From the NCBI GenBank assembly GCA_020216805.1, contig JAIWNN010000074.1, positions 1 through 10,000 of the forward strand: DNA of 10,000 bases, written 5' to 3'. The notes under the pieces are model-generated. The model was given only the letters and a program-made list of their open reading frames with translations, made no database searches and was not told the origin of the DNA. The translations under genes were made by a program, and so were the position numbers. Shown here piece by piece: positions 1-10,000 of the stretch (positions within the stretch are counted from its first letter, which is position 1; the number at the start of each line of letters is the position of its first letter). Source of the stretch: Desulfarculus sp. (lineage in GTDB: Bacteria; Desulfobacterota; Desulfarculia; Desulfarculales; Desulfarculaceae).

Positions 1-28
1 TCCCGGGCGTTCTTGTGCGGTAATTATC

Positions 29-57
29 TTGACGACGTGTGCAAACCGTGATATTCG
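29..57 (+). promoter_or_regulatory. Candidate sigma70-type promoter for fhs
   Basis: A TTGACG hexamer at 29-34 (5 of 6 to the -35 consensus) is followed after 17 bases by TATTCG at 52-57, a weak -10 element that is preceded by TG one base upstream (extended -10 form). It would start transcription near 64 and give fhs a leader of about 165 bases. The -10 match is poor, so this is a candidate only. Confidence 0.35.
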
Positions 58-60
58 CCG

Positions 61-230
61 GAGGGTGATTCGCTCGCCCCTTGGGACAGTTGTCCCTCCC
101 GAAGCCATCGGGGGCCTCGGGGCCTGGGGGGGATGCCAGCCGCCAGAGTTGGAACGGCGAGTCAACCACCGGTTGATGGCGCCGATTAATTTGGAACCCT
201 GCTGAACGATACGGTGCTAGGAGGAAAGAC
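61..230 (+). promoter_or_regulatory. Structured 5' leader of fhs
   Basis: No gene is recognised here. The stretch can fold into several hairpins: GGGACA at 83-88 with TGTCCC at 91-96 (2-base loop); a competing stem of 96-102 with 108-114; and TCAACC at 162-167 with GGTTGA at 171-176 (3-base loop), which extends through an internal loop to CGGCG at 155-159 pairing with CGCCG at 180-184. The first symmetric element could equally be a protein-binding operator. GGGGCCTC/GGGGCCTG is tandemly repeated at 111-126. The leader ends in a strong Shine-Dalgarno, AGGAGG at 219-224, six bases before the fhs ATG. I could not match the leader to a known riboswitch. Confidence 0.4.
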
Positions 231-2006
231 ATGCCCAAGCTGCCGGAGCCGGCCAAAGGAGCCAAGGATTACGAGATCGCGGAAGCTGCCGAGAAATACA
301 TGAAGCCCATTCGGCAGATCGCCGAAGAGCTCGGCGTCACCGACGAGGAGCTCCTGCCCTATGGCCACTACGTGGCCAAGGTCGACTTCATGAAGGTGCT
401 CAAGCGCCTTGGCAAGAAGCCCGATGGCAAGTACATCGACGTCACCGCCATCACCCCCACTCCCCTGGGCGAGGGCAAGTCCACCTCCACCATGGGTCTG
501 ACCCAGGGCTTGGGCAAGCGCGGCAAGAACGTCGTGGCCGCCATCCGCCAGCCCAGCGGCGGCCCGACCATGAACATCAAGGGCTCCGCCGCTGGCGGCG
601 GCCTGGCCCAGTGCATCCCGTTGACTCCCTTCAGCCTCGGCCTGACCGGCGACATCAACGCCATCATGAATGCCCACAACCTGGCCATGGTGGCCATGAC
701 CGCCCGCATGCAGCACGAGTTCAACTACACCGACGAGCAGCTGAAGAAGCGCGGTCTGAAGCGTCTTGATATCGACCCCCGCCGTCCCGAGATGGGCTGG
801 ATCATCGACTTCTGCGCCCAAAGCCTGCGCAACATCATCATCGGCCTGGGCGGCAAGTCCGATGGCTTCATGATGCAGTCCCGCTTCGGCATCGCCGTCA
901 GCTCCGAGATCATGGCCATCCTGGCCGTGGCCAAGGATCTCAAGGACATGCGCGAGCGCATGGGCAAGATCATCGTCGGCTACAACAAGCATACCGGCGC
1001 CCCGGTCACCACCGAGGACCTGGACGTGGCCGGCGCCATGACCGCCTGGATGGTCGAGGCCCTGAATCCCAACCTGCTGCAAACCCTGGAGGGCCAGCCG
1101 GTCTTCGTGCACGCCGGCCCCTTCGCCAACATCGCCATTGGCCAGAGCTCCATCATCGCCGACCGCGTGGGCCTGAAGCTGGGCGACTACCACGTGACCG
1201 AGTCCGGCTTCGGCGCGGACATCGGCTTCGAGAAGTTCTGGAACCTCAAGTGCCGCTTCTCCGGCCTCAAGCCCAACTGCGCGGTGGTGGTGGCCACCAT
1301 CCGGGCCCTGAAGTGCCACGGCGGCGCTCCCATCCCGGTGCCCGGCAAGCCGATGCCGGTTGAGTACAGCAAGGAGAACGTGGGCTGGGTCGAGGCTGGC
1401 TGCGCCAACCTGGTCCACCACATCAAGACCGTCAAGAAGGCCGGCATCAACCCGGTGGTCTGCATCAACGCCTTCTACACCGACACCAAGGACGAGATCG
1501 CGGCGGTGCGCCGTCTGGCCGAGGAGGCCGGCGCCCGCGTGGCCCTGTCCAAGCACTGGGAGAAGGGCGGCGACGGCGCCCTGGAGTTCGCCGACGCGGT
1601 CATCGACGCCTGCGAGGAGAAGAACGACTTCAAGCTCCTCTATGACCTCAAGATGCCCCTGCGTCAGCGCATCGAAAAGATCGCCAAGGAAGTCTACGGC
1701 GCCGACGGCGTGGACTACTCGGCCGACGCCCTGGCCAAGGCCCAGAAGATCGAGAAGGACCCCGAGCTGAGCAAGCTGGGCACCTGCATGGTCAAAACCC
1801 ACCTGTCGCTGTCGGACAACCCCAACAAGAAGGGCGTGCCCAAGGACTGGAAGCTCTTCGTGCGCGACATCCTGATCTATGGCGGCGCGGGTTTCGTGGT
1901 CCCGGTGGCCGGCACCATCACCCTGATGCCCGGCACCGCCTCCGACCCGGCCTACCGCCGGGTGGACGTGGACGTCAAGACCGGCAAGGTCAAGGGTATC
2001 TTCTAG
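231..2006 (+). CDS. fhs: Formate--tetrahydrofolate ligase (divergent Fhs)
   Basis: A 591-residue cytoplasmic enzyme that joins formate to tetrahydrofolate at the cost of ATP, giving 10-formyl-THF, the first folate-bound step of the Wood-Ljungdahl methyl branch. The ATP-binding P-loop is seen at residues 75-84 ([10 protein letters not shown], with K83), followed by the SAAGGGLAQ and TGDINAI(x)nAHN blocks that are hallmarks of the family. The C-terminus ([17 protein letters not shown]) is also typical. It is somewhat longer than the usual 555-560 residues and differs from the common form around [13 protein letters not shown], where most enzymes have a REPSLGP...GIKGG-like block. The start has an excellent AGGAGG site at 219-224. 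It stands alone as a transcription unit, with its own terminator just downstream, but adjoins the metVF/hdrA operon that acts two steps later in the same pathway. Assignment to the family is firm; the divergent branch is inferred from remembered consensus. Confidence 0.96.
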
Positions 2007-2030
2007 GCTCAATTAGTATCGGTTCATCCC

Positions 2031-2064
2031 AGGCCCGGGGGCGCGACGCCTCCGGGCCTTTTTT
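2031..2064 (+). terminator. Intrinsic terminator of fhs
   Basis: A 12-pair GC-rich stem (2031-2042 with 2048-2059, one G-U pair, loop GCGAC at 2043-2047) runs directly into a six-T tract at 2059-2064. It lies 24 bases after the fhs stop codon. This is a textbook rho-independent terminator, so fhs and the downstream hdrA operon are expected to be separate transcripts. Confidence 0.92.
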
Positions 2065-2472
2065 CGCGCCGCGCGGCCAGACAGCCTGCCGCCGGCCCAA
2101 TTCACATAATCACTAGGCGGTTTCTAGCCGTTTCGTCTCAATCACCACCAACCAGCAAGACGGGCCACGGTTTGGCTTGCTCCTAAAGTTCTTTTTGTGT
2201 ATCGTCGCAATAGACACTAATACGATATGAGCGGTGGGCTTAATGATGTTTTTCACAAGCCCCCAACCTCGGTCCCCCGCGGTGCGGTCCGGAACGCCCG
2301 GCGTTCCCGGGGCGGCGCGCGCTGGTTCATTGCGCTGCCAGCGGCCGCGGGCGGCGCGATCCCCGGCACCCTGATCAAAGCGAATCAGGCCGTAGGCCCA
2401 AGGGCGCGGCTCAACCCCCTCAATCCGGGCGGGCAGCGGAACACCGCGCGCCCCCCGCCGAAGGACGAGGAT
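2065..2472 (+). other. Non-coding region upstream of the hdrA-mvhD-metVF operon
   Basis: About 400 bases without a recognisable gene. Positions roughly 2097-2260 are clearly AT-richer than the surroundings and should hold the operon promoter. Candidate -10-like hexamers are CATAAT (2105-2110), TATCGT (2200-2205) and TACGAT (2221-2226), but none has a convincing -35 at the right distance, so I do not assign one. An imperfect direct repeat (GGCGGTTTC 2116-2124, AGCCGTTTC 2126-2134) could be a regulator site. Further down there is a perfect 7-pair hairpin at 2291-2307 (GGAACGC/GCGTTCC, loop CCG) and a 6-pair one at 2370-2389. The hdrA frame stays open back to an ATG at 2227, but the 82 extra residues are proline/arginine/glycine-rich and unlike HdrA, so I treat this as leader rather than coding sequence. 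Confidence 0.6.
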
Positions 2473-5400
2473 ATGGCAGCCCAAAAGGACAGCAAGGTTG
2501 GAGCGGTGATGGTGGTGGGCGCCGGCATTGCCGGAGTGCAGGCGTCCCTGGACCTGGCCAACGCCGGCTATTACGTCTACCTAGTGGAGAAGACCTCGGC
2601 CATTGGCGGGCGCATGGCCCAGCTGGACAAGACCTTCCCCACCAACGACTGCGCCATGTGCATCGTCTCGCCCAAGCTGGTGGAATGCGGTCGCCACCTC
2701 AACATCGAGATCATCACCAACGCCGAGGTGGAGGCCATCGCCGGGGAGCCGGGCAATTTCACGGTCCAGGTGCACCAGGATCCGCGTTTCATCGACCCGG
2801 AGAAATGCACCGCCTGCGGTGACTGCATCAAGGCCTGCCCGGTGGAGCTGCCCAACGAGTTCGACCAGGGCCTGAGCAAGCGCAAGGCCACCTTCAAGCG
2901 CTATGCCCAGGCCTTTCCCAACGCCTATTGCATCACCAAGCTCGACCGCGCCCCCTGCAAGATCACCTGCCCGGCCAACCTGAACGTGCAGGGCTACGTG
3001 CAGATGGCCAAGGTGGGCAAGTACCAGGAATCGCTGTCCATCATCATGGAGGACCTGCCTCTGCCCGGAGTCATCGGCCGCATCTGCCCCCATCCCTGCG
3101 AGGGCGAGTGCCGCCGGCTGAAGGTGGACGAGGCCATCGCCATCCGCGACATCAAGCGCTTCGTGGCCGACCAGGTGGGGGTGGAGAACGTCCCCCAGCC
3201 CCAGGTGGAGCCACGCCCGGAGCGGGTGGCCATCGTGGGCGCCGGTCCGGCCGGCCTGGCCTGCGCCTATCACCTGGCCCGCCGGGGAATCAAGAGCACC
3301 ATCTTCGAGGCCCTGCCCAAGGCCGGCGGAGCCCTGGCGGTGGGGGTGCCCTCCTACCGCCTGCCGGCCGAGGTCCTGCAGAAGGAAATCGACTGCATCA
3401 AGGCCCTGGGGGTGGAGATCAAGCTCAACACCCCGGTGGGGCCGGGCCTGACCCTGGACGACCTCAAATCCCAGGGGTTCAACGCTATCTTCCTGGGCAC
3501 CGGCGCGCCCAAGAGCTTCGATCTTCGGGTGCCGGGCGAGGAGAGCCCCAACGTCATCAGCGCCCTGGACTACCTGCGCGGCGTGGCCCTTAACCAGCCG
3601 GTTCCCTCGGGCGACAACGTGGTGGTGGTGGGCGGTGGCAACGTGGCCATCGACGCCGCCCGCACCGCGTTGCGCAAGGGCGCGGCCAAGGTCACCATGG
3701 TCATGCTGGAGTCGGCCGAGGAGCAGCCAGCCAGCCCCTGGGAGATCACGGAAGCCCTGGAGGAAGGCATCGAGTTCATCCACCGCCAGGGCGTGATGCA
3801 GATCAAGCAGGCGGGCGGCCAGGCCACTGGCCTGGTGCTCAAGCAGTGCCTGGCGGTCTTTGACGAGAACCACCGCTTCGCCCCCACCTTCGACGAATGC
3901 AAGCTCAATGAGATCGGCGCCGACCTGATCATCAAGGCCATCGGACAGCGCACCGATCTTTCCTTCCTGGGCCAGGGCCATCCCCTTCAGATCAGCCCCC
4001 GGGGAACCATCGTGGCCGATCCCCTGACCATGGCCACCAACCTGCCCGGGATCTTCGCCGGCGGCGACGTGGTGACCGGCCCCTGGATCGCCATCGGCGC
4101 GGTGGCGGCCGGACGCGAGGCGGCCATCAGCATCGACCGCTACTTGCGGGGCGAGGACCTGGCCGCCGGACGCGAGAAGCTCAGCCTCAAGCCCGAGGAC
4201 GAGCAGTATTACAACCCCATTCCGGCCAACATCCAACCGAGCCCCCGGGCCCACATGGCCCACCGCGACGCCGAATCCCGCAAACGCGACTTCGCCCAGT
4301 TCGAGCTGGGCCTGACGCCCGAGCAGGTGGCGGCCGAGGGCGAGCGCTGCCTCAACTGCGGGGTCTGCTGCGAGTGCTTCCAGTGCGTGGAGGCATGCAA
4401 GGCCAAGGCCCCGGCCCATGACCAAAAGCCCCAGGACCTGACCCTGAACGTGGGCAGCGTGATCCTGGCCCCGGGCTTCGACCCCTTCGACCCCTCCATC
4501 TTCGAAACCTACTCCTACGCCAAGCACCCCAACGTGGTCACGGCCATGGAGTTCGAGCGGGTGCTCAGCGCCTCGGGGCCCTACCAGGGCCATCTCCAGC
4601 GGCCCAGCGACGGGGTGGAGCCCAAGAAGATCGCCTGGCTGCAGTGCGTGGGCTCCCGCGACATCAACCACTGCGACCACGGCTACTGTTCGGCGGTCTG
4701 CTGCATGTACGCCATCAAGGAAGCGGTTATCGCCAAGGAGCACTCCCACGAACCCTTGGACACCGCCATCTTCTTCATGGACATGCGCACCCACGGCAAG
4801 GATTTCGAGAAGTACTACGAGCGGGCCAAGCATGAGCACGGGGTGCGCTTCATCCGCAGCCGGGTGCACAGCGTCGAGCCGGCGGACGGCGAGCAGTTGC
4901 GTATCGAGTACGCCACCGAGGACGGCCAGGCCAAGGAAGAGCTGTTCGACATGGTGGTGCTGTCGGTGGGCCTACAGACCAGCCCCCTGGCGGTGGAGAC
5001 GGCCAAGAAGCTGGGGGTGGAGCTCACCCACTACAACTTCAGCGACACCAGTTCCTTCGCCCCGGTGGGCACCAACCGCCCGGGCATCTTCGCCTGCGGC
5101 TCCTTCGCCGGCCCCAAGGACATCCCCCAGGCGGTGATGGAGGCCTCGGCCGCGGCCTGCGCCGCCAGCATCGACCTGGCCGTGAGCCGAGGCAGCCTGA
5201 CCAAGGAGGTCGTCTACCCGGTGGAAAAGGACGTCAGCGGCCAGCAACCGCGCATCGGCGTCTTCGTCTGCAACTGCGGGATCAACATCGGCGGCGTGGT
5301 GGACGTGCCGGCGGTGCGCGACTACGCCGCCACCCTGCCCTACGTGGCCTTCGTGGACGACAACCTTTTCACCTGCTCCCAGGACACCCAGAACAAGATC

Positions 5401-6906
5401 AAGGCCGCCATCGAGGAGCACAACCTCAACCGGGTGGTGGTGGCCAGTTGCAGCCCGCGCACCCACGAACCCCTGTTCCAGGAGACCATCCGCGAGGCCG
5501 GCCTGAACAAGTACCTTTTTGAGATGGCCAACATCCGCGACCAGGACTCCTGGGTCCACCAGGGCCAGCCCGACAAGGCCACCGCCAAGGCCAAGGATCT
5601 GGTGCGGATGGCGGTGGCCAAGGCCGCCCTGGTGGAGCCCCTGCACCAGGTGGATCTGAGCCTGACCAAGGCCGCGGTGGTGGTGGGCGGCGGGGTGGCG
5701 GGCATGAACGCCGCCCTGGACCTGGCCAACAGCGGCTATCCGGTGCACCTGGTGGAAAAGACCGACACCCTGGGCGGCAACGCCCACTTCCTGCTCAACA
5801 CCTGGAAGGGCGAGGCCATCGCGCCCTATCTGGAGAACCTCATCGCCAAGGTCAGGGCCCATCCCGGCATCAGGCTGCACCTGGACAGCGAGTTGACCGC
5901 CTGCAAGGGCTTCGTGGGCAACTTCGTCAGCACCATCAGAACCCACGAGGGCCAGGAGTTGTCGGTGGAGCACGGGGTGACGGTATTGGCCACCGGCGGT
6001 CACGAGCACCGACCCAACGAGTATCTCTACGGCCAGCACCCGGCGGTGGTCACCAGCCTGGAGTTCGACATGGAGCTCAAGGGCGACCCGGCCTCGCCCA
6101 AGTCCTTCGAGGCCGCGGCCTTCATCCAGTGCGTGGGCAGCCGCGAGCCGGAACGTCCCTACTGCTCGCGCCTGTGCTGCACCCACTCGGTGGAGAGCGC
6201 CATCAAGATCAAGGAGGTCAACCCCGAGGCCCAGGTCTACATCCTCTACCGCGACGTGCGCACCTATGGCGTGCGCGAGGACCTCTACAAGCGCGCCCGC
6301 GAGCTGGGGGTGCTGTTCATTCGCTACCATCTGGAGGACAAGCCCCAGGTGGCGGCCAACGGCGACCGCCTGACCATCACCGCCACCGACCACGTCCTGG
6401 GCCGGCCCATCAGTTTCGACGTGGACCGGCTGGTGCTGGCCTCGGCCATCGTCCCCAACCAGGTGACCGAGCTGGCCGAGGCCTTCAAGACCCCGCTCAA
6501 CGCCGAGGGCTTCTTCCTGGAGGCCCACATGAAGCTGCGGCCGGTGGACTTCGCCAGCGAGGGGCTCTACCTGGCCGGCCTGGCCCACTTCCCCAAGCCC
6601 ATGGACGAGGCCATCGCCCAGGCCAACGCGGCCGTGGGCCGGGCCCTGACCGTGCTGGCCAAGGACACCATCCGGGTGGGCGGGGTGGTGGCCACGGTGG
6701 ACCCCAACAAGTGCTCGGTCTGCCTGACCTGCGTGCGAACCTGCCCCTACGGGGTGCCCAAGATCAAGGACCATGCCGCCTACATCGAGGTGGCCTCCTG
6801 TTATGGCTGCGGGGCCTGCGCGGCCGAGTGCCCGGGCAAGGCCATCACCCTGCAACACTTCACCGACGCCCAGATCCTGGCCAAGGAGCGGGCGGCCTTC
6901 AATTAA
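2473..6906 (+). CDS. hdrA: Giant HdrA-like flavoprotein with nested GltD/NfnB-like module
   Basis: A 1477-residue cytoplasmic iron-sulfur flavoprotein. Domains in order: HdrA-type FAD domain, part 1 (1-155; GAGIAG at 16-21, C60/C63/C72, one [4Fe-4S] motif C112-C115-C118-C122); an inserted GltD/NfnB-like NAD(P)H unit (about 156-600; C162, C166, C205, C209, C213, GAGPAG 256-261, GGGNVA 387-392, FAGGD 528-532); a cysteine-rich return segment (C626, 629, 632, 633, 635, 638, 642); FAD domain, part 2 with QCVGSR and YCSAVCC (724-744); the HdrA N-terminal-type domain (CNCG 933-936, C968, C993); a second FAD domain (GGGVAG 1072-1077, QCVGSR 1219-1224, YCSRLCC 1230-1236); and a C-terminal 2[4Fe-4S] ferredoxin (C1414-C1424, C1443-C1453). 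HdrA proteins bifurcate or confurcate electrons at FAD. The start at 2473 is chosen for the GAAGGA site seven bases upstream and because homology begins there. With mvhD and metVF next, it likely feeds electrons between NAD(P)H, ferredoxin and methylene-THF reductase. The exact electron donors are inferred. Confidence 0.9.
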   Translation: MAAQKDSKVGAVMVVGAGIAGVQASLDLANAGYYVYLVEKTSAIGGRMAQLDKTFPTNDCAMCIVSPKLVECGRHLNIEIITNAEVEAIAGEPGNFTVQVHQDPRFIDPEKCTACGDCIKACPVELPNEFDQGLSKRKATFKRYAQAFPNAYCITKLDRAPCKITCPANLNVQGYVQMAKVGKYQESLSIIMEDLPLPGVIGRICPHPCEGECRRLKVDEAIAIRDIKRFVADQVGVENVPQPQVEPRPERVAIVGAGPAGLACAYHLARRGIKSTIFEALPKAGGALAVGVPSYRLPAEVLQKEIDCIKALGVEIKLNTPVGPGLTLDDLKSQGFNAIFLGTGAPKSFDLRVPGEESPNVISALDYLRGVALNQPVPSGDNVVVVGGGNVAIDAARTALRKGAAKVTMVMLESAEEQPASPWEITEALEEGIEFIHRQGVMQIKQAGGQATGLVLKQCLAVFDENHRFAPTFDECKLNEIGADLIIKAIGQRTDLSFLGQGHPLQISPRGTIVADPLTMATNLPGIFAGGDVVTGPWIAIGAVAAGREAAISIDRYLRGEDLAAGREKLSLKPEDEQYYNPIPANIQPSPRAHMAHRDAESRKRDFAQFELGLTPEQVAAEGERCLNCGVCCECFQCVEACKAKAPAHDQKPQDLTLNVGSVILAPGFDPFDPSIFETYSYAKHPNVVTAMEFERVLSASGPYQGHLQRPSDGVEPKKIAWLQCVGSRDINHCDHGYCSAVCCMYAIKEAVIAKEHSHEPLDTAIFFMDMRTHGKDFEKYYERAKHEHGVRFIRSRVHSVEPADGEQLRIEYATEDGQAKEELFDMVVLSVGLQTSPLAVETAKKLGVELTHYNFSDTSSFAPVGTNRPGIFACGSFAGPKDIPQAVMEASAAACAASIDLAVSRGSLTKEVVYPVEKDVSGQQPRIGVFVCNCGINIGGVVDVPAVRDYAATLPYVAFVDDNLFTCSQDTQNKIKAAIEEHNLNRVVVASCSPRTHEPLFQETIREAGLNKYLFEMANIRDQDSWVHQGQPDKATAKAKDLVRMAVAKAALVEPLHQVDLSLTKAAVVVGGGVAGMNAALDLANSGYPVHLVEKTDTLGGNAHFLLNTWKGEAIAPYLENLIAKVRAHPGIRLHLDSELTACKGFVGNFVSTIRTHEGQELSVEHGVTVLATGGHEHRPNEYLYGQHPAVVTSLEFDMELKGDPASPKSFEAAAFIQCVGSREPERPYCSRLCCTHSVESAIKIKEVNPEAQVYILYRDVRTYGVREDLYKRARELGVLFIRYHLEDKPQVAANGDRLTITATDHVLGRPISFDVDRLVLASAIVPNQVTELAEAFKTPLNAEGFFLEAHMKLRPVDFASEGLYLAGLAHFPKPMDEAIAQANAAVGRALTVLAKDTIRVGGVVATVDPNKCSVCLTCVRTCPYGVPKIKDHAAYIEVASCYGCGACAAECPGKAITLQHFTDAQILAKERAAFN

Positions 6907-6913
6907 AGACCAG

Positions 6914-6943
6914 CGCCCCGGGGCGGGCTGTCGTCCCGGGGCG
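6914..6943 (+). other. Strong hairpin in the hdrA-mvhD gap
   Basis: CGCCCCGGG at 6914-6922 pairs perfectly with CCCGGGGCG at 6935-6943 (9 GC-only pairs, 12-base loop). It begins eight bases after the hdrA stop codon. No T-tract follows, so it does not look like a functional intrinsic terminator; it may mark a processing or mRNA-stabilising point, or set the expression ratio between the large flavoprotein and the small downstream genes. Confidence 0.6.
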
Positions 6944-6994
6944 ACCAGGGATATGACGGGCAGCGGAAAAACAATCTGGCGCGGGAGGTCAATA

Positions 6995-7417
6995 GTGGAG
7001 AACTTCGAGCCGACCATCGTCTCTTTCTGCTGCAAGTACTGAGCGTACTCCGCGGCGGACCTGGCAGGTTCCATGCGACTGCAGTACCCCAGCAACATCA
7101 AGGTCATCCAGCTTCCCTGCTCCGGGCGGGTGGACATCCTCCATCTGCTCAAGGCCTTCGAGGACGGCGCCGACGGGGTCTACGTGGCCGGCTGCAAGGA
7201 GGGCGACTGCCATTTCCTGACCGGCAACTTCAAGGCCCGGCGCAAGGTCAATTACGTCAAGCAGGTGCTGACCGCCCTGGGCATCGAGCCCGAGCGAATC
7301 GAGATGTTCAACATGAGCTCGGCCGAGGGACCGCGCTTCGCCCAGGTGGCGCGGGAGTTCACCCAAAAGATCCAGGAGCTGGGGCCCAGTCCGGTGAAAA
7401 CGGCCAAGGCGGCCTAA
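6995..7417 (+). CDS. mvhD: MvhD-type Fe-S protein, probable selenoprotein (Sec at codon 16)
   Basis: A 140-residue electron-transfer protein of the MvhD/FrhD ('hydrogenase iron-sulfur subunit') family, which docks on HdrA and passes electrons to it through a [2Fe-2S] cluster. The frame runs from GTG at 6995 (GGGAGG site at 6983-6988) through MENFEPTIVSFCCKY to an in-frame TGA at 7040-7042, then continues AYSAADLAGSMRLQYP, exactly the family N-terminus. Family members have a CxxC here followed by a tyrosine-alanine-aspartate stretch; TGA takes the place of the second cysteine, giving C13-x-x-U16. Other family cysteines are C42 (PCSGRVD), C67 and C72 (GCKEGDC). Nothing after the TGA would give a full domain if translation started at ATG 7073. 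An in-frame ATG at 6953 is an alternative, less likely start. It sits between hdrA and metV, as MvhD does in acetogen metVF clusters. Selenocysteine reading is inferred; the family call is firm. Confidence 0.9.
7051..7077 (+). promoter_or_regulatory. Candidate bacterial SECIS element of mvhD
   Basis: Downstream of the in-frame TGA (7040-7042), GGACCT at 7057-7062 pairs with AGGTTCC at 7066-7072 (six pairs with one bulged T at 7069), closing a GGC triloop at 7063-7065. A lower stem pairs CGC 7051-7053 with GCG 7075-7077 across a small internal loop. The loop starts 20 bases after the TGA and opens with GG; bacterial SECIS hairpins typically have the apical loop some 16-37 bases downstream with a G at its start, and a bulged U in the stem. 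Its bulge is on the 3' side, unlike E. coli fdhF. Folding was done by eye. Confidence 0.65.
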
Positions 7418-7458
7418 CCCACGGCCCGTCTTCGGCCAATGGCTGCGAGGTGGTTCTT

Positions 7459-8127
7459 ATGATCGTAGGTGACAGCAAGCCTTTGGAAGAAATCCTCGAG
7501 ATGATCGAGGGCAAGGACAGGGTCCTGGTGTTGGGTTGTCGCGGCTGCGTCACGGTCTGCAACGTGGGCGGCGAGAAGGAGGTGGGCATCCTGGCCACCG
7601 CCTTGCGCATCGCCCGCAAGATGCGCGGCCTGCCGGGCCACATCGAGGAGCGCACCCTGGAGCGCCAGTGCGACCCGGAGTACATTGAGGAATTGGCCGA
7701 CGCGGCCGAGGGCTATGACGCCATCGTCTCCATCGCCTGCGGGGTGGGACCTCAGTTCGTCGCCGAGCGCTTTCCGGCGGCGCGGGTGTATCCCGGCATA
7801 AACACCACCTTCATCGGCGGAGCGCTGGAGCACGGCGTCTGGAGCGAGCGCTGCCAGAGCTGCGGCAACTGCCTGGTGCACCACTTCGGCGGCCTGTGCC
7901 CCATCGCCCGTTGCTCCAAGAGCCTGATGAACGGCCCCTGCGGCGGCTCGGCCAACAAGAAGTGCGAGATCAGCCCCGAGGTGGACTGCGTCTGGCATCT
8001 GATCGTGGAGAAGATGGAGGCCATGGGTCGGCTGGAGGAGCTGGAGCGGGTCTGGCCGGTCAAGAACTGGATCACCAGCCGCGACGGCGGCCCGCGGCGG
8101 CGGGTGAGGGAGGATCTGAAGCAATGA
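7459..8127 (+). CDS. metV: MetV, iron-sulfur partner of methylenetetrahydrofolate reductase
   Basis: A 222-residue cysteine-rich protein of the family that carries the MTHFR C-terminal (MetV) domain. It forms a complex with MetF and carries electrons to or from its flavin through iron-sulfur (and probably zinc) sites. Cysteine motifs: C27-x2-C30-x3-C34 (GCRGCVTVC), C94 in ACGVGP, C132-x2-C135-x2-C138, C147, C152, C161 in the signature NGPCGGS, C169 and C177. The first reading of the frame would begin at GTG 7450, but ATG 7459 is preferred because GAGG at 7447-7450 lies eight bases before it, while GTG has no site. It starts 41 bases after mvhD and overlaps metF by four bases (ATGA), so translational coupling with metF is likely. 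Typical acetogen MetV is of similar size. Confidence 0.92.
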   Translation: MIVGDSKPLEEILEMIEGKDRVLVLGCRGCVTVCNVGGEKEVGILATALRIARKMRGLPGHIEERTLERQCDPEYIEELADAAEGYDAIVSIACGVGPQFVAERFPAARVYPGINTTFIGGALEHGVWSERCQSCGNCLVHHFGGLCPIARCSKSLMNGPCGGSANKKCEISPEVDCVWHLIVEKMEAMGRLEELERVWPVKNWITSRDGGPRRRVREDLKQ

Positions 8128-9053
8128 AAGCGGGCAGCAACCTCGAGAAAGTGCTGAAGGCCGGCCATTTCGCCGTCACCGGCGAGTTGGGCCCCCCCCG
8201 GGGCAACAACGCCGAGGAGGTGCGCCACAAGGCCCATTTCCTCAAGGGCGTGGTGGACTCGGTGAACATCACCGACAACCAGACCGCCGTGGTGCGCATG
8301 GCCTCTTGGGCGGCTTGCAAGATCCTGATCGACGAGGGCCTGGAGCCCAACTACCAGATGGTCTGCCGCGACCGCAACCGCATCGCTCTGCAGAGCGACA
8401 TCCTGGGGGCCACCGCCCTGGGCATCAAGAACGTGCTCTGTCTGTCCGGCGACCACCAGCGTTTCGGCGATCATCCCGAGGGCAAAAACGTCTATGACCT
8501 GGACTCGGTGCAACTTATCACCGTGTTCAAGAAGATGCGCGACGAGGGCAAGTTCCTGAACGACAAGGAGCTGGACGGCGCGCCCGGGGTCTTCATCGGC
8601 GCGGCGGCCAACCCCTTCGCTGATCCCTTCGACTTTCGGGTGACCCGATTGGCCAAGAAGATCGCGGCCGGGGCCGACTTCATCCAAACCCAGTGCATCT
8701 ATAACCTGCCCAAGTTCCGCGAGTACATGAAGCGGGCGGTGGACAAGGGCCTGCACGAGAAGTGCGCCATCCTGGCCGGCATCACGCCCTTGAAAAGCGT
8801 CGGCATGGCCAAGTACATGGCCAAGTTCGTGCCCGGCATGGACGTACCCGAGGAGTTGGTCAAGCGCCTGCAAGGCGTGGACAAGAAGGCCCAAGGCGAC
8901 GAGGGCATCAAGATCGCCATCGAGATGATCCAGGAGATCCGGGAAACCATGCCCGGGGTGGCCGGGGTGCATGTGATGGCCATCGAGTGGGAGCACCGGG
9001 CCAAGGAAATCGTGGAGGGCGCGGGGCTCCTTCCCCGACCGGTGGTGGACTGA
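8124..9053 (+). CDS. metF: Methylenetetrahydrofolate reductase, MetF (MetVF type)
   Basis: A 309-residue FAD enzyme with the single TIM-barrel expected of MetF. It interconverts 5,10-methylene-THF and 5-methyl-THF, the last folate step before the methyl group goes to the corrinoid protein of the acetyl-CoA pathway; in sulfate reducers that oxidise acetate it runs in reverse. E21 in GELGPPRG matches the catalytic glutamate of the E-x-x-P-P-R motif, SVNITDN follows the substrate-binding loop, D110 in CLSGDH matches the flavin-contacting aspartate, and FIQTQCIYN is a family block near the folate site. The ATG lies inside the metV stop overlap and has a GGGAGG site at 8108-8113. Pairing with MetV implies that electrons come through MetV and the MvhD/HdrA-like proteins rather than directly from NADH; this is inferred from context. 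Confidence 0.95.
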   Translation: MKAGSNLEKVLKAGHFAVTGELGPPRGNNAEEVRHKAHFLKGVVDSVNITDNQTAVVRMASWAACKILIDEGLEPNYQMVCRDRNRIALQSDILGATALGIKNVLCLSGDHQRFGDHPEGKNVYDLDSVQLITVFKKMRDEGKFLNDKELDGAPGVFIGAAANPFADPFDFRVTRLAKKIAAGADFIQTQCIYNLPKFREYMKRAVDKGLHEKCAILAGITPLKSVGMAKYMAKFVPGMDVPEELVKRLQGVDKKAQGDEGIKIAIEMIQEIRETMPGVAGVHVMAIEWEHRAKEIVEGAGLLPRPVVD

Positions 9054-9061
9054 GGCCGGCC

Positions 9062-9098
9062 GGCCATCGTCAGGCCGCGTGACGACCTGGCGATGGCC
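9062..9098 (+). terminator. Long hairpin after metF, possible operon end
   Basis: GGCCATCG at 9062-9069 pairs with CGATGGCC at 9091-9098, and the stem continues through a T-G pair to CAGG 9071-9074 with CCTG 9086-9089, giving 13 pairs and an 11-base loop, nine bases after the metF stop. There is no T-tract behind it, only an A-rich run, so it may be a rho-assisted terminator or a 3'-end stabiliser rather than a classical intrinsic one. Confidence 0.5.
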
Positions 9099-9160
9099 AA
9101 CAAAATAGAGGGCGAGGATACCCCCGTCTCTACGTCGATAATTGAGGCTTCTTGGCTGTA

Positions 9161-9207
9161 GGGGCGGGGTTTATCCCCGCCCTGCTCGTCCCGGAAACAC
9201 CACGAGC
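9161..9207. repeat. REP-like double palindrome
   Basis: Two adjacent inverted repeats: GGGCGGGG (9162-9169) with CCCCGCCC (9175-9182), loop TTTAT, and GCTCGT (9184-9189) with ACGAGC (9202-9207), loop 12 bases. The first belongs to a GTAGGGGCGGG...CCCGCCC style of palindrome that I recall as dispersed in intergenic regions of many GC-rich bacteria. Being non-coding, between two unrelated operons and symmetric, it is likely a dispersed repeat, but copy number cannot be judged from one window. Confidence 0.45.
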
Positions 9208-9276
9208 CTGTCCTGAGTCCATCGCGCCATCCCTTGATGTTGACCGGGCCGGCTTCCGCGCGCCCCAGCCTCCAAA

Positions 9277-9306
9277 TTGACACCACTGTCGGGCCGAGGA
9301 TATATT
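9277..9306 (+). promoter_or_regulatory. Sigma70-type promoter of thrC
   Basis: A perfect TTGACA at 9277-9282 and TATATT (5 of 6) at 9301-9306, separated by 18 bases, within a short AT-rich break in GC-rich DNA. The predicted start near 9313 gives the threonine synthase gene a leader of about 28 bases with GGAGAG at 9330-9335. This is the best promoter match in the window. Confidence 0.72.
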
Positions 9307-9340
9307 TCAGGCCTTGTCCCACCCCCATTGGAGAGCCCGC

Positions 9341-10000
9341 ATGCGGCTAGAGGAATTCTCCCCGGCGGATCGCGAACTGGTGTTGCCCCAGGTCGGGGGC
9401 GACCTGCAATACCACTGCCTGGGGTGCGGCGCCCGGCACGGCATCGCCAAGCTGCTCTACACCTGCCCGGACTGCGGCGAGGTGCTCCTGATCGAGGACC
9501 AGGATTTCGCCCGGCTCAAGCAGCGCCCGGGCGCGGCCTGGCGGCGGGCCTTCGACCTGCGCCGGATGCTCAACCTGCCGGCCATCAAGGGCATCTTCCG
9601 CTACCACGAGTTGGTGGCCCCGGTGGTGCCGGCCGACAGCGTGGTCTACCTGGGCGAGGGCCACACCCCCCTGGTCGAGGCCCCGCCCCGCCTGCGCGCG
9701 GCCCTGGGCCAGGACTTCTGCTTCAAGAACGACGGCCAGAACCCGTCCGCCTCCTTCAAGGACCGGGGCATGGCGGTGGCCCTGTCCTTCCTCAACTACT
9801 TGATCAAGCACCAAGGCTTGGGAAAAGTCCTGAGCGTCTGCGCCAGCACCGGCGACACCAGCGCCGCCGCCGCCCTCTACGGGGCCTACCTGGCCCCGGC
9901 GGTGGCCTCGGCGGTGCTGCTGCCCCGGGGCAAGGTGACCCCCCAGCAGTTGGCCCAGCCCCTGGGCTCCGGGGCCATGGTCTTCGAGATCCCCGGGGTC
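9341..10000 (+). CDS. thrC: Threonine synthase, N-terminal part (runs off window)
   Basis: The first 220 residues of a PLP enzyme that converts O-phosphohomoserine to threonine in the cytoplasm; the frame is still open at the window end. A zinc-ribbon-like N-terminal segment has C26-x2-C29 and C42-x2-C45, as in many bacterial and archaeal threonine synthases of this class. The segment GEGHTPLVEAP (106-116) precedes FKNDGQNPSASFKDRG, in which K140 of SFKDRG is the expected PLP Schiff-base lysine. CASTGDTSAAAALYGAY then matches the glycine/serine-rich phosphate-binding loop. The ATG at 9341 has GGAGAG five bases upstream and a strong promoter ahead of it. It is unrelated to the folate operon and has its own transcription start. 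Related PLP fold-type II enzymes are possible, but the motifs favour threonine synthase. Confidence 0.9.
   Translation, partial: MRLEEFSPADRELVLPQVGGDLQYHCLGCGARHGIAKLLYTCPDCGEVLLIEDQDFARLKQRPGAAWRRAFDLRRMLNLPAIKGIFRYHELVAPVVPADSVVYLGEGHTPLVEAPPRLRAALGQDFCFKNDGQNPSASFKDRGMAVALSFLNYLIKHQGLGKVLSVCASTGDTSAAAALYGAYLAPAVASAVLLPRGKVTPQQLAQPLGSGAMVFEIPGV

Follow-up and report, generated by a model that had tools for sequence, protein, structure and literature searches.

A TGA-interrupted mvhD gene beside metVF in Desulfarculus sp. probably encodes a CxxU selenoprotein, and some of its relatives probably use an alternative selenocysteine site

The mvhD gene that lies between an HdrA-like gene and metVF in Desulfarculus sp. 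is interrupted by one in-frame TGA, placed exactly where the second cysteine of the N-terminal CxxC motif is expected. This interruption is confirmed, and the best overall explanation, which we hold with high confidence, is that the gene encodes an MvhD protein with selenocysteine (Sec) at residue 16 that links the HdrA-like flavoprotein to MetVF. The gene is found in a stretch of 10,000 nucleotides (contig JAIWNN010000074.1 of assembly GCA_020216805.1, positions 1 to 10,000; hereafter the window), which lies on contig 5 of a MAG of 1.83 Mb in 171 contigs that is 55% complete. The features of the window are as follows:

231-2006, + strand: fhs, formate--tetrahydrofolate ligase (NF010032, 1127.6 bits)
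2476-6906, + strand: HdrA-like gene with an inserted GltD/NfnB-like NAD(P)H:FAD domain (HdrL type), from profile matches; the start codon is unsettled and the longest ORF begins at 2227
6983-6988, + strand: GGGAGG, Shine-Dalgarno-like, seen in the sequence, 6 nt before GTG 6995
6995-7417, + strand: mvhD, read through, 140 residues (GTG start, TAA stop, PF02662)
7040-7042, + strand: in-frame TGA, codon 16, predicted Sec of C13-x-x-U16 (Cys or TGA at residue 16 in 187 of 187 relatives)
7045-7082, + strand: bacterial SECIS-type hairpin, core GGACCU-GGC-AGGUUCC at 7057-7072, apical loop GGC at 7063-7065
7073-7417, + strand: default-called ORF of 114 residues from ATG 7073, as in database records, without U16 and C13
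7459-8124, + strand: metV (DUF5981, methylene-THF reductase C-terminal family; 121.7 bits)
8121-9053, + strand: metF, methylenetetrahydrofolate reductase (MTHFR; 140.5 bits)

The frame runs from GTG 6995-6997 to TAA 7415-7417, and the TGA at codon 16 is its sole interruption. Read through this codon, the gene gives a product of 140 residues (VENFEPTIVSFCCKYUAYSAADLAGSM...KTAKAA), of which residues 8-130, on both sides of the TGA, match the Pfam family FlpD (PF02662). This match scores 175.3 bits (cut-off 22.3). The NCBIfam model VhuD (NF045873), which is an NCBI exception model, scores 166.8 bits and falls below its cut-off of 215 bits. An AlphaFold model of the protein, with residue 16 as cysteine, has a mean pLDDT of 91.8 and resembles the MvhD chain of the HdrABC-MvhAGD complex (5odc_D; TM 0.92, rmsd 1.0). 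The strands of the model lie at residues 8-13, 35-40, 61-66 and 102-106, so that the Cys/Sec positions 13/16, 42 and 67/72 each come after the end of a strand; the strand ends that bear them should lie on one edge of the predicted sheet. When 80 of 181 relatives were kept, the closest named MvhD came from the MAG Desulfarculus sp. S21 (97% identity), and the protein of Desulfocarbo indianensis was 86% identical. These results bear out the sequence-only reading in its two starting claims, namely that the TGA replaces the second cysteine of CxxC and that MvhD-like sequence stands on both sides of it.

We compared the gene with 198 MvhD-like alignments from 191 loci, of which 187 distinct genes span both residue 16 and residue 67. 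The 191-locus alignments contain 96 in-frame stops, all of them TGA, at residue 16 (69) or residue 67 (27); TAA, TAG and stops at other residues are absent from all 198 alignments. Residue 16 is TGA in 69 of the 187 distinct relatives and Cys (TGC or TGT) in the other 118, as the sequence-only reading had anticipated for this codon. All 187 have Cys at residues 13, 42 and 72, and every one of the five positions 13, 16, 42, 67 and 72 is either Cys or TGA in each of these genes. Among the matches listed from whole-genome searches, the rows for 98 relatives and 394 genomes of the phylum have either no TGA or one TGA, and the search of the 98 relatives returned at least 49 rows with one TGA in at least 34 genomes. 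Before 40 picked stretches were added, the sample held 39 genes with U16, 22 with U67 and 95 with Cys at both sites, duplicates included; since 39 of the 40 were chosen for carrying one TGA, the Sec frequencies given here are biased.

This pattern leaves almost no probability to the idea that the TGA arose through faulty sequencing or assembly, or marks a pseudogene. The one point in favor of such an origin is that the genome is a 171-contig MAG, 55 percent complete, but the same TGA recurs in other genomes, including the single-contig G014, in proteins that share 47 to 99 percent identity with that of the window, and the stops of the relatives are confined to one codon and two residues. Equally improbable is a reassigned code in which TGA would be decoded as another amino acid, such as Trp. 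We found no point in its support, and against it residue 16 is Cys, never Trp, in every sampled relative without the TGA, while SelA, SelB and SelD are present in the genome.

Default gene calling starts the protein at ATG 7073, and the sequence-only reading had predicted that the resulting 114-residue product would lack the N-terminal redox motif. Judged by their length, database records agree, as 99 of the best 120 matches to the 114-residue ORF are themselves 114 residues long. With the 114-residue query, the best five matches are 114-residue proteins with 89-93% identity, whereas with the full 140-residue query they are Cys proteins of 141-145 residues with 73-77% identity. One of the 114-residue matches, FAK_11460 of Desulfoferula mesophila, is named 'hypothetical protein' at NCBI. 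Current annotation of these genes should be read with the warning that it drops the N-terminal redox motif of MvhD.

The short ORF raises the alternative that TGA 7040-7042 is a true stop, that translation restarts at ATG 7073 and that the functional product has 114 residues. Besides the presence of this ORF in databases, Met27 occurs in 65 of the 69 TGA-16 genes. Met27 does not appear to be kept as a start, because Cys genes whose N-terminus is intact have it just as often (64 of 92) and four of the 69 TGA-16 genes lack it. The 15 codons upstream of the TGA retain the family sequence, with C13 as Cys in 69 of 69 TGA-16 genes, and no evident ribosome-binding-like sequence lies directly before 7073. 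Moreover, codons 21-25 are frozen in TGA-16 genes only, with codon entropies of 0.30, 0, 0, 0.11 and 0.37 bits, as compared to 1.94, 1.00, 1.36, 1.82 and 1.74 bits in Cys genes. A restart at ATG 7073 is accordingly very unlikely, and read-through of the TGA is the reading that we follow here.

Behind the TGA, the hairpin at 7045-7082 has a predicted energy of -9.7 kcal/mol, and its GGC loop starts 20 nt after the UGA, which agrees with the earlier proposal of a SECIS-like hairpin with a GG-starting loop 20 bases downstream. The hairpin also fits all constraints of the bSECIS model of PMC13188914, as given in the available part of that review (loop of 3-9 nt, here 3 nt; stem of 4-16 bp; G within the first two loop positions; spacing of 16-37 nt; energy of -7.5 or lower). 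Rfam returned no match in the window at gathering scores. We rejected hairpin energy as evidence for Sec, as it gives no gain over shuffled sequences and Cys homologs pass equally often. None of the five stretches that we folded was steadier than its dinucleotide shuffles (z of 0.16 to 1.09). The energy filter was passed at site 16 by 13 of 25 TGA genes and 44 of 81 Cys genes, and at site 67 by two of 21 TGA genes and seven of 85 Cys genes; with our own script, 12 of 25 TGA-16 and 19 of 21 TGA-67 genes missed the -7.5 threshold.

Because energy fails to separate Sec from Cys genes, the case for the hairpin is one of sequence conservation. The motif CCTGGNAGG occurs 13 to 45 nt after codon 16 in 68 of 69 TGA-16 genes but in only three of 118 Cys-16 genes (P-value 4e-46, Fisher test, a value that is overstated because related sequences share kinship). 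The 15-mer GGACCTGGCAGGTTC is found in 64 of 69 TGA-16 genes and in none of the 118 Cys-16 genes. Genes without the TGA show no such conservation of the hairpin sequence. Covariation is thin and compensatory changes are scarce, because the stems hardly vary: the sixth stem pair at site 16 is G-C in 66 genes, A-U in one and unpaired in two, and at site 67 one pair is altered on both sides, being U-A in 23 and A-U in three of 26 genes.

Residue 67 is the second site of interruption. Here 26 of the 187 distinct relatives have TGA and the other 161 have Cys, and this TGA replaces the first cysteine of C67-x4-C72 (for example in L049, L085 and L080). No gene among the 187 has TGA at both 16 and 67, although independence of the sites would predict approximately 9.6 such genes (P-value 2e-6, kinship ignored). 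The same CCTGGNAGG lies behind codon 67 in 26 of 26 TGA-67 genes and in three of 161 Cys-67 genes, as part of the site 67 hairpin ATT(T/A)CCTGGAAGG(A/T)AAT, which is present in 26 of 26 and in one of 161, respectively. Codons 73-78 show entropies of 0 to 0.52 bits in TGA-67 genes only. Sites 16 and 67 thus each have their own hairpin, built on a common core. The carriers of Sec-67 belong to the Desulfatitalea/Desulfosarcina group, other Desulfobacterota and Dehalococcoidia, together with one Spirochaete MAG. The locus L065 of Desulforhabdus sp. TSK combines both forms: of its two mvhD genes, the one linked to metV has TGA at 16 and the other has TGA at 67.

On a tree of MvhD and MetV with 131 rows, the distribution of U16, U67 and Cys states requires 16 changes, compared to a mean of 54.6 after shuffling, and the starred branches alone force at least four changes for U16, at least six for U67 and at least eight for Cys. 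These numbers indicate that the three states switched repeatedly. The tree is a quick LG+G4 reconstruction, rooted at its midpoint, that lacks bootstrap values and drew long-branch warnings, and it serves here only to count changes of state. The archaeal PDB chain 9sfi_K, named 'F420-non-reducing hydrogenase subunit delta', has X, a non-standard residue, at both of the positions that align with residues 16 and 67. In our own reading this X is Sec, in agreement with Table 1 of PMC13188914, where MvhD/VhuD is listed with the motif CxxU and two Sec residues; multiple Sec residues in archaeal FrhD/VhuD are also described in that review.

The sequence-only reading had proposed looking for selA, selB, selC and selD in the same genome. 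Three of them are present, each above its cut-off (selA 602.4, selB 378.7 and selD 363.6 bits), while a tRNA-Sec gene (selC) was not found above the cut-off in the 55%-complete MAG. The tRNA-Sec candidates of the source genome were rejected, as ARAGORN assigned them to tRNA-Ser, tRNA-Trp, tRNA-Gly or tRNA-Thr. tRNA-Sec scored above the cut-off in 13 of 21 genomes, among them two of five congeners (G002 and G004); it did not in the congeners G001, G005 and G003, the last of which is 97% complete (123 of about 1,071 candidates scored). The tRNA-Sec gap is the main loose end of the analysis. SelA is above the cut-off in 73 of 98 relatives and, among the matches listed, in 31 of the 34 genomes with a TGA-bearing MvhD; the other three, without SelA above the cut-off, are 70, 71 and 79% complete. 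Overall, the data support the earlier reading of the window mvhD as a selenoprotein gene with a predicted CxxU motif, and the sequence makes a strong case for insertion of Sec at residue 16 of the predicted 140-residue protein.

The source MAG also holds a second gene that appears to encode a selenoprotein:

L011:1486-2529, contig 34 of the same MAG: selD, with an in-frame TGA at codon 16 (AAGUAAKIGPGDL)

The AAGUAAKIG of this predicted SelD fits the UxxK motif given for SelD in PMC13188914.

On the + strand of the window stand, in this order, fhs, the HdrA-like gene with the inserted GltD-like domain, mvhD, metV and metF, followed by the first part of a threonine-synthase-like gene. This includes the hdrA-mvhD-metV-metF order of the Hdr-type MetVF methylene-THF reductase. 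No hdrB or hdrC is present among the ORFs of the window between fhs and metF, and the window contains no NiFe hydrogenase gene. Between the HdrA-like gene and mvhD we observed a GC hairpin (6914-6943) with a stem of 13 bp and no T-run; the fold of 6905-6965 has an energy of -30.6 kcal/mol, which 11 of 200 shuffles equalled, and the hairpin is perhaps involved in RNA processing or differential expression. The N-terminal CxxC of the HdrA-like protein (2476-6906) retains Cys (NDCAMC), and we take this to be the site at which CxxU is known for HdrA. The motif CxxU is given for HdrA in a selenoprotein review (PMC13188914).

The gene metV lies within 1.5 kb downstream of 66 of 69 U16 genes, 25 of 26 U67 genes and 40 of 92 Cys/Cys genes among the distinct relatives, a share that is to be read as a lead and not as a rate, because the sample was centered on a MetV-linked query and enriched in stretches picked for one TGA. 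Six Desulfarculaceae loci (L152-L157, from G014, G017, G012, G016, G002 and G004) carry one more mvhD copy that is linked to metV; in this second copy, too, residue 16 is TGA and the same hairpin is present, and its protein shares 48-57% identity with that of the window.

Gene order, neighbors and solved homologs allow us to reasonably infer that Sec is placed in the electron path of methylene-THF reductase. SelB and Sec-tRNA would recognize the hairpin behind the UGA and insert selenocysteine as residue 16. A predicted [2Fe-2S] cluster would then be held among the five invariant Cys/Sec residues 13, 16, 42, 67 and 72, and MvhD would bind to the product of the upstream HdrA-like gene and pass electrons between the flavin of that product and MetVF, the methylene-THF reductase encoded downstream. 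With Sec in place, the site may have a lower potential or transfer electrons faster, and in a sulfate reducer the flow probably runs in the direction of methyl-THF oxidation. Sequence, conservation, machinery genes, gene order and the fold match are observed here; the ligated cluster, the assembly with HdrA and MetVF, the course of the electrons and the contribution of selenium are inferred. A [2Fe-2S] role of MvhD is given in PMC6019823 and PMC12350162, and in pulldowns from Sporomusa ovata MvhD binds HdrA, HdrB and MetF, which suggests a comparable link in the Cys/Hdr system of that species (PMC9430772). It is also possible that Sec is inserted but that MvhD serves an HdrA-linked enzyme other than MetVF. 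In Desulfobacterium autotrophicum mvhD stands beside several kinds of hdrA/hdrL loci (PMC2702500), and MvhD-like proteins are described as exchangeable connectors (PMC12350162). We consider this unlikely, given the order of HdrA-like gene, mvhD, metV and metF in the window and the metV gene close behind nearly all distinct TGA-16 genes, even if sampling favored close relatives.

MvhD is the connector through which the bifurcating flavin of HdrA is supplied. How two electrons cross this gap is an open question in PMC12350162, and a 2025 paper on the Elp-Hdr structure describes the step between cluster and flavin as one of unknown mechanism. We suggest tentatively, and with more doubt than conviction, that residues 16 and 67 are the two halves of one redox site in which a single selenium sits on either half, and that a selenenylsulfide or a Se-ligated cluster relay there would help electron pairs to pass between the [2Fe-2S] cluster and the HdrA flavin. 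This suggestion draws on the position of both residues at strand ends, the X residues of 9sfi_K, the counts of 69 genes with U16, 26 with U67 and none with both among 187, the repeated switching of states and the shared CCTGGNAGG core. In the sample, 91 of 95 Sec copies lie beside metV, and if the paired-site reading is true, this bias would mean that selenium is tuned for the methylene/methyl-THF couple. Because the relatives carry Sec at one of two places, its role can be tested: one selenium shifts between two fixed positions and Cys forms branch nearby, so that nature supplies matched variants with which to find out which residues take part.

Sec in the MvhD/VhuD family is already known, as the sequence-only reading had stated (PMC2702500, PMC5109826, PMC1794560, PMC5029168 and PMC13188914). 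Four Sec-containing mvhD genes are reported in Desulfobacterium autotrophicum (PMC2702500) and one in Desulfococcus multivorans (PMC5109826). An earlier survey gives 19 bacterial FrhD selenoproteins, with three Sec-to-Cys and three Cys-to-Sec events, and lists FrhD for Moorella thermoacetica (PMC1794560); a later count gives 53 and 131, which we take as organisms and selenoproteins (PMC5029168). The available parts of PMC5736913, PMC5039349, PMC11385720 and PMC11328732 make no statement on Sec in a MetV-linked MvhD, and we make no claim to priority for the MetVF link or for the pattern of two sites. The window protein shares its family, fold and predicted CxxU site with the known MvhD/VhuD selenoproteins. 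It differs from the archaeal 9sfi_K, which is non-standard at both 16 and 67, in that Sec is predicted at 16 only. The HdrCBA-MvhD-MetVF clusters of the acetogens Moorella thermoacetica and Sporomusa ovata place MvhD between an HdrA-like protein and MetVF, as in the window (PMC9430772 and PMC5736913, whose available parts do not state the Sec status of MvhD). Compared to these clusters, the HdrA of the window is long, with an inserted GltD-like domain, and hdrB and hdrC are not seen between fhs and metF. In its gene fusion, the window resembles Desulfobacterium autotrophicum, where HdrL, a fusion of HdrA and glutamate synthase, is followed by mvhD just as the HdrA-GltD fusion is here (PMC2702500). 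The HdrL/MvhD genes of that species adjoin Dsr, Fdh or hydrogenase genes (PMC2702500), whereas the partners in the window are metV and metF.
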